Origin: Nitrospira sp.
GTDB lineage: Bacteria > Nitrospirota > Nitrospiria > Nitrospirales > Nitrospiraceae
DNA length: 64,000 nucleotides
Direction of reading: 5' to 3'
NCBI GenBank assembly: GCA_029194665.1
Contig: JARFXO010000001.1
Coordinates: forward strand, 1 to 64,000
Shown piece by piece: positions 8,776 to 14,051 of the stretch (position 1 is its first letter; each line of letters opens with the position of its first letter). Under the pieces are notes generated by a model. It was not told the DNA's origin and searched no databases. It worked only from the letters and a program-made list of their open reading frames with translations. The position numbers and the translations under genes were made by a program.

Positions 8776-9249
8776 ATGGGTAAAGAGACGGACGATCATC
8801 GGAAAGTCGTGGCCACCAATCGGAAGGCCTACCACGATTATTTTATCGAAGAAAAGTTTGAGGCCGGGATTGTGCTCAAGGGCACCGAGGTGAAATCCCT
8901 TCGGGACAGACGAGTGAACTTACAAGACAGTTATGCGGACGTTAAAGAAGGGGAGGTTTTTCTCCATCACTGCCACATCAGTCCCTATAGTCACGGCAAC
9001 ATTATGAACCATGATCCGACCAGGACCCGCAAAATGCTCCTTCATCGAAAGGAGATCAACAAGCTCCTCGGGAAAACTCAACAGAAAGGCCTCACGCTGA
9101 TCCCTCTACGAATCTATTTTTCGAAGAGAGGCCAAGCCAAGGTCGAAATAGGATTAGCCAAAGGGAAGAAACAGTACGATCGCCGAGAATCGATCAAAAC
9201 TCGTGAAGCGGGCAGGGAAGTGGAGCGAGCGATCAAAGAACGAAAGTAG
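8776..9249 (+). CDS. smpB: SsrA-binding protein SmpB
   Basis: 157 aa, standard length. Family features include [48 protein letters not shown] and the basic C-terminal tail after KKQYDRRE that inserts into the ribosomal mRNA channel. SmpB delivers tmRNA to stalled ribosomes. The ATG follows GCCAGGGGTGCC. The tmRNA gene is not in this window. Start is supported by the MGKE...KVVATNRKA alignment with the family. Confidence 0.96.
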
Positions 9250-9446: not shown

Positions 9447-9533
9447 TTATTTTTCACCGTCAAGGAACACCGCCTTATACATCGCTCCAAAAACAGCGGT
9501 CAGCGCGAGCAACGCAAAAAATATCGTCATCAT
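9447..9533 (-). CDS. 28-aa single-span membrane micro-protein
   Basis: An ORF of 28 codons beginning ATGATGACG, preceded by AAAGGAGGTG at an ideal 7-base spacing, one of the strongest ribosome binding sites in the window. The product is MMTIFFALLALTAVFGAMYK followed by AVFLDGEK: one hydrophobic helix with a charged C-terminus. Its core LTAVFGAMY resembles LAAIFGVLY of the neighbouring 26-aa ORF at 9714-9794, suggesting paralogues. I do not recognise the family. Tiny subunits of membrane complexes (as KdpF, CydX and similar) look like this in general terms only. Start and strand are supported by the binding site; expression is unproven. Confidence 0.55.
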   Translation of the reverse strand: MMTIFFALLALTAVFGAMYKAVFLDGEK

Positions 9534-9640
9534 TGCTCTTCACCTCCTTTTATTCGATACAAAACATACCGTTCGAAAATGAACGAAATGAAAGTATGAA
9601 AAGTCGTTATAACCCGAAAAACTACCCGCTCCGCATATCG

Positions 9641-9663
9641 ATCTGTTGGATAAACCAACAGAT
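9641..9663. repeat. Perfect 9-bp hairpin between the two micro-ORFs
   Basis: ATCTGTTGG and CCAACAGAT form a perfect 9-base stem around a 5-base A/T loop. It lies in an A/T-rich stretch between the 26-aa and 28-aa minus-strand ORFs, 50 bases past the stop of the first. It could attenuate or stabilise a shared transcript, or be an operator palindrome; no U-run follows directly. Confidence 0.5.
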
Positions 9664-9713
9664 TATTGATCTCTTGACAACCGTTATCCTACGGCAGATC
9701 GTTCCACCGTCAG

Positions 9714-9794
9714 CTACCGATTTGCGAGCTGGAACATTGCGTACAACACTCCGAATATGGCTGCCAATATGGACACTTCGATGATGGAAATCAT
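9714..9794 (-). CDS. 26-aa single-span membrane micro-protein
   Basis: ORF of 26 codons, product MISIIEVSILAAIFGVLYAM followed by FQLANR: an acidic residue near the N-terminus, one hydrophobic helix, a basic end. AAGGGGGGTGA sits 9 bases before the ATG. The helix core LAAIFGVLY aligns with LTAVFGAMY of the ORF at 9447-9533 (shared L-x-A-[IV]-F-G-x-[LM]-Y, similar size and orientation), which is the main evidence that both are real and related. Function unknown; a small subunit or regulator of a membrane complex is a guess. Confidence 0.5.
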   Translation of the reverse strand: MISIIEVSILAAIFGVLYAMFQLANR

Positions 9795-9832
9795 GATAAT
9801 CGTTCACCCCCCTTCCACCTTCCTTAAGGTAT

Positions 9833-9886
9833 CTACGCCTGCAAGATGAAGCTTCCATGATGAGATCGTGAAGAATTCTTCATCAT
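9833..9886 (-). CDS. Possible 17-aa leader-like ORF
   Basis: ATGATGAAG opens 17 codons (MMKNSSRSHHGSFILQA) with GGAGGGG exactly 7 bases upstream. It ends 38 bases before the 26-aa membrane ORF. The start region overlaps an inverted repeat (AGATCG...CGATCT enclosing the palindrome GAAGAATTCTTC), so the coding signal may instead be part of a structured leader. It is too short for composition to help. Confidence 0.25.
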   Translation of the reverse strand: MMKNSSRSHHGSFILQA

Positions 9887-10164: not shown

Positions 10165-10401
10165 TCAACGGGCGGTAAATACGGAACAGCCTGGAATGAA
10201 ACAGACCTTGCATCTCCTATCTTCTCTGCGTGACGTCTTGACCGTTTCAACGAATGCCGCGAGAGGGATCCTCCGGCCAGTAGTCTCGGCCATGTTGCGG
10301 ACTGTTCTTCCGGCCTGGTGCGTCCCCGCGATGATTGCTTGACTGAGTCCCGTAACGACGTACGGAAAGCACACCATTGAAGCAGCGATAATATTGTCCA
10401 T
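10165..10401 (-). CDS. Possible 78-aa small protein, unrecognised
   Basis: ATG with GGGGAGG five bases upstream opens 78 codons. The first ~30 residues are mildly hydrophobic (MDNIIAASMVCFPYVVTGLS, then QAIIAGTHQAGR); the rest is basic with two cysteines near the end (CKVCF). It shares the minus orientation with the micro-ORFs downstream. No family is recognised, and an overlapping frame upstream also encodes a hydrophobic segment (LYVMLLAFLIM), so a frameshifted remnant of one membrane protein is an alternative. Confidence 0.35.
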   Translation of the reverse strand: MDNIIAASMVCFPYVVTGLSQAIIAGTHQAGRTVRNMAETTGRRIPLAAFVETVKTSRREDRRCKVCFIPGCSVFTAR

Positions 10402-10828
10402 ATTGTCCTCCCCTTCATGATAAGGAAAGCTAACAACATCACATAAAGGGAGAACGAAGTCAAGGTGAAGCGGATTTCATCCTCCGTGAGAAGTTCATGT
10501 GCTGTCGATGTGGGGTCATGTGGGGTCACTGGAGGATGGCGCATCGTTTCCAAACTCTCGTCCATTAGGAAAGCACTTGACCATCCGTGACCTATATCGA
10601 TTGACTGCTTTATCGAGAGGTCATTTCGCCCCGGTTATGGTCGTGCGAATTGTGTGTGGCGAAACGTGTGATGGCCATACGAAGTGGAGTGTCATGACAA
10701 CCTTTGCAAGGGAAAGTCGTCTTGGAAGTGGGTGACTCACTTGGCAGGACAAAACGCTGGGAGGAGACGAGGTGAACTAAAATGGAGTCAGAACGTAGGT
10801 GGACGAGGTCAAAGTGCTTCGAGAGCCG
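10402..10828. other. Gene-poor stretch between small ORFs and the sensor kinase
   Basis: No convincing gene. It contains a perfect 10-base tandem duplication (ATGTGGGGTC twice, 10508-10527) and a short minus-strand frame with a hydrophobic run described under the 78-aa ORF. Together with 9250-10164 it forms about 1.5 kb of low coding content in an otherwise dense region. Confidence 0.5.
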
Positions 10829-12265
10829 CTAAGCAGGGCCCGATTGCTGGGCATGTGCTGGTAAACGCAGGGTGAAGACAGAGCCTTTGTTGACTTCACT
10901 GGTGACAGAAATACTACCCCCATGAGCATCCATAATTTCTTTCACGATGGGCAATCCAAGTCCGGTACCGGCGGAGTCTTTCGCGCGGGCCCAATCAGTG
11001 CGGTAGAATCGTTCGAAGAGATGGGGAATATGCTCCGGTTCGATCCCATGGCCCGTGTCCTCGACGGCCACGGTGACCTTAGAACTGATCGTTTGTAGAC
11101 GAACCGTGACGGAACCACCGGATGGAGTGTACCGCAGCGCATTGTCGAGCAGATTGATCAATGCTTGTTTGAGCCACTGTGCATCGCCGAGGACGGACGG
11201 AACCGGTTGGGACTCAAATGTCAGGGCAATCCGGTGGTCATCCGCCAAGACCATCAGTTCATCCACGATCTCTTGAATCAACGGTTCCAGGGCGAGGGGC
11301 ACGAGATTGACCGGCGGTTTGCTGCTGGTGAATTTCGCCAACGTCAACAATGGGCGAGTCAAGGCAATGAGCCGATCCACTTGCTGGAGGTTGTTGAGCA
11401 GCACCTCGCGATATTCTTCGACAGTCCTGGCTTTCATGAGGGCGACCTCCAGATTACCTTGCAAGATGGTCAAAGGAGTCCTCATCTCGTGGGCGGCGAT
11501 TTCACAAAAGTTACGTTGGACTTCGCTGCTTCGTTGGAACTGATCCAGCACCGCGTTGACCGCCTGGGTGAGTCGCCGAAATTCCCGATAGGGTGAATCT
11601 ACCGCCAGTCGTTTTCCGAGGTCGGCTTCCGACATCGTTTCTGCCCCGGCGCACAAGGCTTCGATGGGGGCCAGCACCTTCTTTGACAGCCAGAGGCTCC
11701 CGATCCAGGCGAGTAGAAGTGTGGCTCCGGATCCAAGCGTCAGCAGGAATACAAGCCCATGCAGAGTTTCCTGGTAATGGAGCAGCGACGTTTCCGCCTG
11801 CAAAACATACCGCACATGGTCTTTCCCGGCGAAGGGGAAGAACAAATGCCGCGCCGGCATCCCATCGGCCGAGTCCATCGTTTCAAACGTGATCTTCGAA
11901 AGCCGAACTCGTTCAAGCACATGCGGCGAAATCGAGACTTGCGCATCCGCACGGGGACTGTTCCACACCAGCCGGCCATCAGCCGAAAAGATCCGAAGGG
12001 CGTGCGAGATGTTGGGCAATAGGTGCTGTTCCAGCGTGCCGTGGGTTAAGTCATTAGCCGGCGCGGTGTCCTTGGTGTTGGTCCTCATGAAGTCGGGATA
12101 CCGCTCCGCAATCTCGGCAAGGGACTCGGCCAATACCAACATTTGTCCATCGAGTAAGCGGTGCAACAAGACCTCGCTGGCAGCGTACACGAGCCCAGAA
12201 AACGCGAGAAGACCAGTCATCAGGACGACGGCGGACCAGCTGATCAAACTGCGCAGAGATTTCAT
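10829..12265 (-). CDS. Membrane sensor histidine kinase (CusS/heavy-metal type)
   Basis: 478 aa. The first transmembrane segment is at residues ~10-30, a ~130-residue periplasmic domain follows, and the second segment lies near 170-195 (FLLTLGSGATLLLAWIGSLW). HAMP spans ~196-248, the HisKA H-box is AAHEMRTPLT (His ~260), the N-box is NLLDNALRYTP, then DTGHGIEPEHIPHLFERFYR and GTGLGLPIVKEIM complete the ATPase. Its start overlaps the stop of the upstream response regulator by 4 bases (ATGA-type), so they are translated together. Similarity is to the CusS/CopS/IrlS group, but no metal ligands are obvious, so the stimulus is unknown. Confidence 0.93.
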   Translation of the reverse strand: MKSLRSLISWSAVVLMTGLLAFSGLVYAASEVLLHRLLDGQMLVLAESLAEIAERYPDFMRTNTKDTAPANDLTHGTLEQHLLPNISHALRIFSADGRLVWNSPRADAQVSISPHVLERVRLSKITFETMDSADGMPARHLFFPFAGKDHVRYVLQAETSLLHYQETLHGLVFLLTLGSGATLLLAWIGSLWLSKKVLAPIEALCAGAETMSEADLGKRLAVDSPYREFRRLTQAVNAVLDQFQRSSEVQRNFCEIAAHEMRTPLTILQGNLEVALMKARTVEEYREVLLNNLQQVDRLIALTRPLLTLAKFTSSKPPVNLVPLALEPLIQEIVDELMVLADDHRIALTFESQPVPSVLGDAQWLKQALINLLDNALRYTPSGGSVTVRLQTISSKVTVAVEDTGHGIEPEHIPHLFERFYRTDWARAKDSAGTGLGLPIVKEIMDAHGGSISVTSEVNKGSVFTLRLPAHAQQSGPA

Positions 12266-12945
12266 GCAGGTGAGTCCGGCTCTTCGAGCATATACCCGGC
12301 ACCACGCACTGTGGCGATCAAGGGCGGCGAAAAATCCCGATCGATCTTTGCGCGTAGAGCCCGGATATGGGCGTCGACGATGTTCGTCATGGGGTCATAG
12401 CTGATGTCCCACACATGTTCAATGATCGCGGTTCGCGTGAGCACACGATTCTTGTTCCGTAACAGAAATTCTAGGAGCGCATACTCCTTATTCGTCAGGA
12501 AGATTTCCTGCTCGGCGCGCCAGACACGGTGAGACGCCGGGTCCAATCGAAGGTCAGCCGCTTGAAGATGGGCAATTTGCTGGGAACTGCCTCGGCGCAA
12601 AAGCGCCCGAACGCGGGCGAGCAACTCCGCGAAGGCGAACGGCTTCGGCAGAAATTGATCCGCCCCCGTGTCAAAGCCGGATACCTTCGTCTCCACCGTG
12701 TTGCGCGCCGTGATGAGCAGCACCGGAGTTGTGATGCCCTTGTCTCGAACGCGGCGGCAGAGGGTCAAACCGTCAAGCTTCGGCAGCATCACGTCTAGAA
12801 TCACGAGATCGTAAGGGTTGTTCAGCGCCAACGCCAATCCTGCTTCGCCATCGGCAGCAGCATCCACCGCATAGTACTCTTCTTTCAATCCTTTTTTGAT
12901 GAATTGAGCAAGGTCCGCATCGTCTTCAACGAGCAGAATTCTCAT
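12262..12945 (-). CDS. OmpR-family response regulator (CusR-like)
   Basis: 227 aa. Receiver domain MRILLVEDDADLAQFIKKGL with acidic pocket EDD, phosphoacceptor Asp in VILDVMLP (~51) and Lys in FLPKPFA. The C-terminal winged helix has LRLDPASHRVWR, LTNKEYALLEFL and the terminal VRGAGYML. It regulates transcription when phosphorylated by the adjacent kinase. First gene of the pair, co-translated with the kinase. Confidence 0.95.
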   Translation of the reverse strand: MRILLVEDDADLAQFIKKGLKEEYYAVDAAADGEAGLALALNNPYDLVILDVMLPKLDGLTLCRRVRDKGITTPVLLITARNTVETKVSGFDTGADQFLPKPFAFAELLARVRALLRRGSSQQIAHLQAADLRLDPASHRVWRAEQEIFLTNKEYALLEFLLRNKNRVLTRTAIIEHVWDISYDPMTNIVDAHIRALRAKIDRDFSPPLIATVRGAGYMLEEPDSPA

Positions 12946-12996: not shown

Positions 12997-13614
12997 TCAA
13001 CATAGGCTGCTCTTGCAATCTGTGACCACCAGGTTGGTTGCTTTTTCGTCTGCTTCGAGGTCGATGGTCAGCCAGGCGATTCCCATCGCCCGCTCATCCT
13101 GATGGGCTCCACCGCTCCCCTCAAGGAGGCTGACGACATAATACCGGCCACCGGGAACTTTCGTGAACCAAAAATGGCCGGTTGGATTGGCCCTCGTCGT
13201 ACGGAGATAGGGAATCAGTCGTTTATCGGTCAGCAGTTGGGCCATGACCTCACGAAGGCATTCCACAGGCGAGCCCTGCGTCATGAGGGGCTCTGACGAA
13301 GATGTCGCACCTTTGAGAGAGCAGGAGTAATCTCGCACATGTTTATCGAACCAATGGCGAGTATATGGAACCATTGGAATCAAGTAGATCGAGGCCCCTG
13401 CCTGCGTCACGGCTTTTCCAGAGGGTGTGCGCAAGAACACCTGTCCGGCCGCACTTCCCCGACCTTTCGCTCTGTAGGCGAAGAATTCTTTCTCATTGAA
13501 GGCTGGTGGGCTCGATGAGCCCGACGTCACCGCCTGTGCCGGTGCGACGAGGAAGCCGCTGATCAGCAACAACCCTGCAAGCCAGCACCCGAGTTGCCTG
13601 TCGCGCCTCGTCAT
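12997..13614 (-). CDS. Secreted protein of unknown function
   Basis: 205 aa with a clear signal peptide (MTRRDRQLGCWLAGLLLISG then FLVAPAQA, cleavage about residue 28). The mature part contains a carboxypeptidase-regulatory-like pattern: GQVFLRTPSGKAVTQAGASIYLIP early and KVPGGRYYVVSLL later, typical of beta-sandwich modules. Four cysteines (two mid-protein, two at the CKSSLC end) could form disulphides. Its ATG overlaps the stop of the upstream FTR gene by 4 bases, so the two are co-translated. Function is not assignable. Confidence 0.8.
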   Translation of the reverse strand: MTRRDRQLGCWLAGLLLISGFLVAPAQAVTSGSSSPPAFNEKEFFAYRAKGRGSAAGQVFLRTPSGKAVTQAGASIYLIPMVPYTRHWFDKHVRDYSCSLKGATSSSEPLMTQGSPVECLREVMAQLLTDKRLIPYLRTTRANPTGHFWFTKVPGGRYYVVSLLEGSGGAHQDERAMGIAWLTIDLEADEKATNLVVTDCKSSLC

Positions 13615-14051
13615 GTCGAGGAAGCCGACGCTGCGGCGGGCTCGTCGGGCACGGTTGAAGCCGGGAGGGACTTGTGTTTGAGGGCGCGGCCTTTGTCCGG
13701 GGTCGGATCGGTGACAAGACCATACACTTCGCGACCTTCGTGGCCGTCCGGCAAATATTCCGTAATCGGCATCCCATCTTCACGAACAAACAGGAGACAA
13801 TGACAGTACTTGTACATCTGCATTTCGTCGCAGGCGCAGATCCACCGTCGAAGCTTAGCTTCGGCTTCCTTATCCTTGTAAAAGTTACAAGGGCAGAGCG
13901 GTTTCCCGAGTTCGTCGATATGGGACGCTAATCCCTTGACGACCGCCTCCGTCACGGCAGTGTTGGGATGCATCGTGGTTCCGCTTTTCTCGGCAAAACC
14001 CTGTATGAACTTCCGGATCTTATCGAGACTTTCCTGCGTCGGTTCGGCCAT
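13611..14051 (-). CDS. Ferredoxin:thioredoxin reductase, catalytic chain
   Basis: 146 aa. The cysteine pattern of the FTR catalytic subunit is intact: LCPCNFY, ICACDEM and YCHCLLFV, which supply the [4Fe-4S] ligands and the redox-active disulphide. The family passes electrons from ferredoxin to thioredoxin. Residues after ~115 are a low-complexity tail rich in Ala, Ser and Pro. It heads a minus-strand pair with the secreted protein and is divergent from the large VWA gene. The variable FTR subunit is not adjacent, as is usual in non-photosynthetic bacteria. Confidence 0.88.
   Translation of the reverse strand: MAEPTQESLDKIRKFIQGFAEKSGTTMHPNTAVTEAVVKGLASHIDELGKPLCPCNFYKDKEAEAKLRRWICACDEMQMYKYCHCLLFVREDGMPITEYLPDGHEGREVYGLVTDPTPDKGRALKHKSLPASTVPDEPAAASASST

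Follow-up and report, generated by a model that had tools for sequence, protein, structure and literature searches.

The microprotein locus and its coding evidence

The window analyzed here, a stretch of 64,000 nucleotides from the bacterium Nitrospira sp., carries dnaA, dnaN, gyrB, and gyrA, followed by smpB (names read from the list of open reading frames), an arrangement we take to be that of a typical chromosome start. Convergent with smpB, the minus strand bears genes for two microproteins, A and B, for a somewhat larger small protein, E, and for a membrane histidine kinase and an OmpR-family response regulator that constitute a two-component system (Table 1).

Table 1. Coordinates of the genes and operators at the microprotein locus
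Feature	Positions	Strand	Description
smpB	8776..9249	+	convergent neighbor closing the conserved locus; synteny marker, outside the system
Microprotein A	9447..9533	-	28 aa, MMTIFFALLALTAVFGAMYKAVFLDGEK; one predicted TM helix; Shine-Dalgarno AAAGGAGGTGA
Operator/promoter of A	9564..9601	-	TTCAT repeats, then -10-like GTATGT; spacing degenerate here, canonical in relatives
Microprotein B	9714..9794	-	26 aa, MISIIEVSILAAIFGVLYAMFQLANR; one predicted TM helix; Shine-Dalgarno GGGGGGTGA
Operator/promoter of B	9831..9883	-	ATGAAGAATTCTTCACGATCTCATCATGGAAGCTTCAT, then -10-like GTAGAT; perfect match to the regulon motif
Third target, E	10165..10401	-	78 aa, MDNIIAASMVCFPYVV...RCKVCFIPGCSVFTAR; hydrophobic N-terminal part, conserved Cys-containing tail
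Operator upstream of E	10431..10480	-	decayed, 2 mismatches; intact in orthologs (e.g. L011, L009)
Membrane histidine kinase	10829..12265	-	HAMP-like, HisKA, HATPase_c; PAS-like periplasmic domain in model
OmpR-family response regulator	12262..12945	-	Response_reg and Trans_reg_C; presumed operator binder

The two short ORFs, each with a single hydrophobic helix, were first noticed in an initial annotation made from the sequence, and their description is borne out by Kyte-Doolittle maxima (17-residue window) of 2.2 for A and 2.4 for B. The core claimed for both, LxA[IV]FGx[LM]Y, is present as LTAVFGAMY in A and LAAIFGVLY in B. The same annotation considered both Shine-Dalgarno sequences near-ideal, which holds for A, with 10 contiguous matches at a spacing of 6, but is overstated for B, whose site is good, with 5 contiguous matches at a spacing of 9; 10 contiguous matches are found in some orthologs of B. 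Searches of Pfam, NCBIfam, PHROGs, and the PDB returned nothing significant for A, B, or their relatives, in keeping with the view that these are undescribed small proteins.

Of 59 congeneric genomes searched with tblastn (E<=1), 22 gave matches to A and 32 gave matches to B, although a few of the weakest matches are due to chance. The relatives preserve both ORF length and ribosome-binding site, and substitutions fall mostly at third codon positions; dN/dS is 0.22 among 21 distinct sequences of A and 0.19 among 52 of B. The remaining two forward frames have pN/pS ratios of 0.86-1.83, and on the reverse strand low ratios (0.38-0.46) are confined to the frame that shares the wobble position. 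When ten loci were aligned, they matched the window at about 0.8-0.9 identity across most of the A and B ORFs and their ribosome-binding sites, at about 0.6-0.85 in their promoters, and mostly at 0.1-0.5 in the flanks; the conserved footprint is thus confined to promoter, ribosome site, and ORF. The spread of the matches and the frame-specific dN/dS of about 0.2 mark A and B as more than chance ORFs, as had been surmised, and the tblastn results, the synonymous-site bias, and synteny all support real genes. These comparisons demonstrate coding and conservation, by which A and B are real, conserved genes that were previously undescribed.

The two had also been presented as a related pair. Their kinship is likely, since intermediate sequences bridge them and a B-only profile gives A proteins positive scores, although 34 of 2000 shuffled decoys score as high as or higher than the A of the window; four intermediates outscore every decoy. 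In an alignment of A, B, and the intermediates, Tyr never varies and FG is nearly constant. The word "pair" is too narrow, as they are part of a set in which each locus has between one and three such genes, and the window contains a third target. There are up to about five A/B copies per genome, with paralogs standing alone in unrelated intergenic regions, and no member of the superfamily was found outside the genus of the window in 96 genomes of the family.

The top NCBIfam subfamilies of the kinase and regulator are those of the CusSR/CopRS/CzcRS heavy-metal two-component systems (TIGR01386/TIGR01387), with scores short of the curated cut-offs (257.5 against 292.55; 256.4 against 279.2), and no metal-resistance gene adjoins the system in the window. 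An AlphaFold model of the kinase (pLDDT 71, pTM 0.45, i.e. of moderate confidence), used solely for this point, suggests with moderate confidence that its periplasmic part, between the TM helices, is a PAS-like domain. Beside the regulator (12997-14051, minus strand), we observed genes for a protein resembling the ferredoxin-thioredoxin-reductase beta chain (PF02943) and for an exported protein of 205 aa with no assigned family, both of which recur in relatives (L070, L217).

A direct-repeat operator and its probable regulon

Upstream of A, B, and most of their paralogs lies the operator TTCAY-N7-TCAY-N6-TTCAT, comprising three direct repeats with an 11-bp period, followed by N9 and a -10-like GTA; it is missing from some far paralogs. 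The initial annotation had not noted this operator, which we regard as the key feature of the locus. OmpR/PhoB-family activators use a layout of this kind, with direct repeats about one helical turn apart directly before the -10 element. Judged by this layout, the A and B operators are of the OmpR/PhoB response-regulator type and constitute candidate binding sites. When one mismatch was allowed, the 59 congeneric genomes yielded about 175 sites, as against 1 with the reversed pattern. A half-site that had not been searched for, ATGAAGA, emerges 11 bases upstream in 127 sites of the genus, with a weak signal in 48 sites of other genera. With the motif extended by this half-site, a scan of 118 genomes of the phylum recovered sites in the family of the window and no convincing site outside it, where the few matches look like chance. 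Within its own genome, the B site is convincing and three further sites are kept in relatives; scans for sigma-70 promoters and terminators gave nothing above chance.

An ortholog of the kinase (at least 67% identity) is found in 43 of the 59 genomes, and operator sites occur in 42 of these 43, as against 5 of the 16 genomes lacking it (Fisher p=1.7e-7, with relatedness ignored). Two of these five are fragmented assemblies (G004, G047), and G025, G032, and G051 carry a kinase homolog of 43-46% identity with an operator no more than about 2 kb upstream of it, before a gene for a PepSY protein. G004 excepted, every genome with good matches to A/B also has the kinase ortholog. The sole genome with an ortholog and no operator site, G046 (2.0 Mb), keeps a 71% kinase with neither operator nor microprotein nearby; this, together with the location of A/B 4-12 kb from the kinase in a few genomes, indicates that the microproteins are not indispensable for the kinase. 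Most of the 50 named Nitrospira loci display the gene order response regulator-kinase-[operator-microprotein]n-smpB, with n=1-3; the exceptions include five loci with A/B further off (L195, L196, L204, L206, L217), and at L222 no microprotein was seen. Operators flank the homologous kinase in other genera too, and in genera g9 and g2 the order operator-microprotein-regulator-kinase suggests autoregulation. Linkage of the operator to the kinase and their co-occurrence are hence established at the level of genome comparison. A and B are small ORFs under selection, within about 50 aa and with a single predicted TM helix, as is characteristic of small membrane proteins regulated by two-component systems, and their motif, spacing, conservation, and co-occurrence argue for each having its own promoter with a response-regulator-type site.

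We counted as micro-ORFs those of up to 60 aa, beginning within 200 nt past the operator, with a ribosome-binding site and a TM segment. Among loci selected by operator alone, such an ORF lies behind 57 of 113 sites, against 2.3% of random positions; in the opposite direction there were 4 over all 180 sites. The families behind operators comprise A, B, A/B-like 25-32-mers, D (MDANWLIFGAAILGLVVAAAFVYKKGQQP), and E (about 78 aa). In close relatives, E retains RCKVCFIPGCxVFAPR, with three cysteines, in its C-terminal part, a stretch that the more distant copies lack. In the genera g18, g9, g12, and g2, the operators precede unrelated peptides, mostly of 29-42 aa (e.g. MNKLKTIAPVTLLLLLVIAAMGVMVFWGVSLLDLSE), and such unrelated 29-42-aa membrane peptides adjoin the homologous kinase in Nitrospiraceae genera other than that of the window. 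Because sister genera place unrelated peptides under the same control, the operator motif finds microproteins that homology misses. The operators also precede genes for larger products, among them Slp outer-membrane lipoproteins, PepSY proteins, and a nucleotidyl transferase.

Several individual sites merit mention. In G069 (genus g12), an operator stands ahead of what looks like a series of two micro-ORFs and an HMA-domain P-type ATPase (L277:16700-19001), which may point to a connection with metals. The operators L137:6364 and L137:2812, some 3.5 kb from each other, drive an Slp lipoprotein and a family-less exported protein, an arrangement that recurs in several genomes. A conserved operator in the urease locus of five genomes (L297:1501-1539, L122, L136, L141) points antisense into an apparent ureA, and no ORF was found downstream of it. 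In the genome of the window, a PAS-like sensor protein is preceded, at a distance of about 190 nt, by a conserved operator (L295:1501), with similar sites in about six other genomes. On contig 3 of the window's genome, at about 716.6 kb, a TTCAT-type site in variant form, ATGAAGAAGTTTTCATCTTCTCCTAATGATCTCTTCATG, stands before a conserved 106-aa soluble protein (L326:4087-4407), the gene for which adjoins a helicase-like gene; the variant is also present in genus g18 (L322-L325).

Proposed mechanism and competing explanations

We propose that a periplasmic signal would activate the kinase, whereupon the phosphorylated OmpR-family regulator would bind the 11-bp-spaced TTCAT repeats, which would stand in for a -35 box. 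A separate promoter and a strong ribosome-binding site would yield each microprotein, E alike with A and B, and each would enter the inner membrane as a single helix. There it would most probably serve as a regulatory peptide by contacting, helix to helix, the kinase or another membrane partner as first candidate, providing feedback or tuning in the manner of MgrB, or else, as a second candidate role, adjust the envelope under stress like PmrR or YohP. We infer that the operators are bound by this particular regulator, that it activates rather than represses, and that the A and B products insert as single helices; the molecular target and the signal are our guess. A and B probably form part of the regulon that the adjacent two-component system controls and have a regulatory or stress role in the membrane, and we only tentatively suggest the kinase as their direct target.

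Three known microproteins offer points of comparison. MgrB, a 47-aa feedback inhibitor of PhoQ/PhoP, contacts the kinase through its TM region (PMC8404706). Like A and B, as far as the sequence indicates for these, it spans the membrane once and is controlled by a two-component system of the OmpR family, but it depends on a periplasmic region, whereas A and B are almost devoid of a soluble part and, unlike MgrB, are present in several copies per genome. A and B are also shorter than MgrB and presumably unrelated to it in sequence; in searches confined to family profiles, neither matched any family in Pfam or NCBIfam even at an E-value of 10, which speaks against membership of the MgrB family. 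PmrR, a membrane peptide controlled by PmrA, inhibits LpxT (PMC8129183); its gene likewise codes for a hydrophobic peptide and has its own PmrA box at the pmrAB locus, but it overlaps pmrB divergently, whereas A and B lie on the same strand downstream of the kinase. YohP, a 27-aa protein of E. coli reported to be linked to stress (PMC12719787), shares the length class and single helix, but, unlike A and B, has no known two-component operator.

Our preferred reading, in potential analogy to MgrB with PhoQ and PmrR with LpxT, is that the peptides are regulatory and act on the kinase or on some other protein of the membrane, since from genus to genus the peptides change whereas the kinase and the wiring stay the same, and since a microprotein gene usually adjoins the kinase. 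Against this count the other OmpR-type regulators of these genomes, which could read the repeats, and the copy number of up to about five per genome, which exceeds the needs of simple feedback. Alternatively, the peptides, still induced by the two-component system, might be bulk stress effectors that alter membrane fluidity, potential, or lipid make-up with no single protein partner. The occupation of the same positions by non-homologous hydrophobic peptides in sister genera, the multiple copies, the Slp lipoproteins accompanying the peptides in the regulon, and the precedent of a general membrane effect reported for YohP (PMC12719787) are all consistent with such a role; nevertheless, the purifying selection within the genus, the invariant Tyr, and the near-constant FG exceed the demands of bulk hydrophobicity, and we regard it as somewhat unlikely.

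It is also conceivable that another OmpR-family regulator reads the operators, leaving the neighboring kinase and regulator as bystanders. Each genome has several OmpR-type systems, and a slightly different TTCAT-type site precedes the 106-aa soluble protein in g1 and g18; however, the co-occurrence with this kinase, the adjacency in several genera, and the operators beside its 43-46% homolog make this improbable.

Nitrospira possess many oxidase-like complexes, and the size and single helix of A and B would fit the small accessory subunits that respiratory or transport complexes can carry, such as CydX, KdpF, or CcoS; the initial annotation had raised a role as subunits or regulators of a membrane complex, of which a regulatory role is still conceivable, though in the setting of the two-component system. 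Profiles of small subunits (CydX, KdpF, CcoS/FixS, PetG) gave no match for A or B, and relatives had sub-threshold matches to PetG (E 0.06, 13.6 against 23.7 bits) and FixS/CcoS (E 0.09, 13.0 against 23.1 bits). No complex is linked to the main locus or the paralogous loci as a constant neighbor, and the paralogs stand alone; what A and B have instead is a regulator operator and linkage to a kinase. With both linkage and profile match absent, the oxidase-subunit identity was dropped, and we consider subunits of this kind quite improbable.

Short, hydrophobic, multicopy peptides at orphan loci also recall type I toxins of the TisB/DinQ kind, which are silenced by antisense RNA, but the strong constraint on the amino acids, the regulator-type promoters, and the lack at the locus of any conserved element besides operator, ribosome site, and ORF that could encode an antisense RNA, or of any Rfam match there, render this very improbable, and it too was dropped. 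That A and B are chance ORFs without a product, for which their great shortness might speak, has a negligible probability, being contradicted by the conservation, ribosome sites, locus order, and frame-specific selection in dozens of genomes and by the footprint.

Implications for signaling in the Nitrospiraceae

That two-component systems induce microproteins is already known, with MgrB and PmrR as examples. What is new, as far as the genomes indicate, are the protein families, the operator, the predominance of microprotein genes among the targets of that operator, and the replacement of the peptides by unrelated ones in sister genera. A literature search, with most subscription journals outside its scope, found no paper joining Nitrospira, a small membrane protein, and a two-component system. 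Since most relatives with the sensor carry such genes behind a promoter of the same regulator type, the microproteins seem to be the chief product of a signaling system that has so far gone unstudied. More broadly, though with some reservation, we suggest that an OmpR-type two-component system of the Nitrospiraceae might have as its main output membrane microproteins, each with its own copy of the operator and represented by non-homologous peptides in sister genera, such that conservation would lie in the wiring and in the possession of one helix, not in the sequence, and the peptides would serve as exchangeable tuners of the kinase or the membrane. Nitrospira are major nitrite oxidizers and include the comammox bacteria. 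Their signaling is little known, and a defined operator, regulator, and kinase, together with undescribed small genes, lay this system open to direct laboratory testing.
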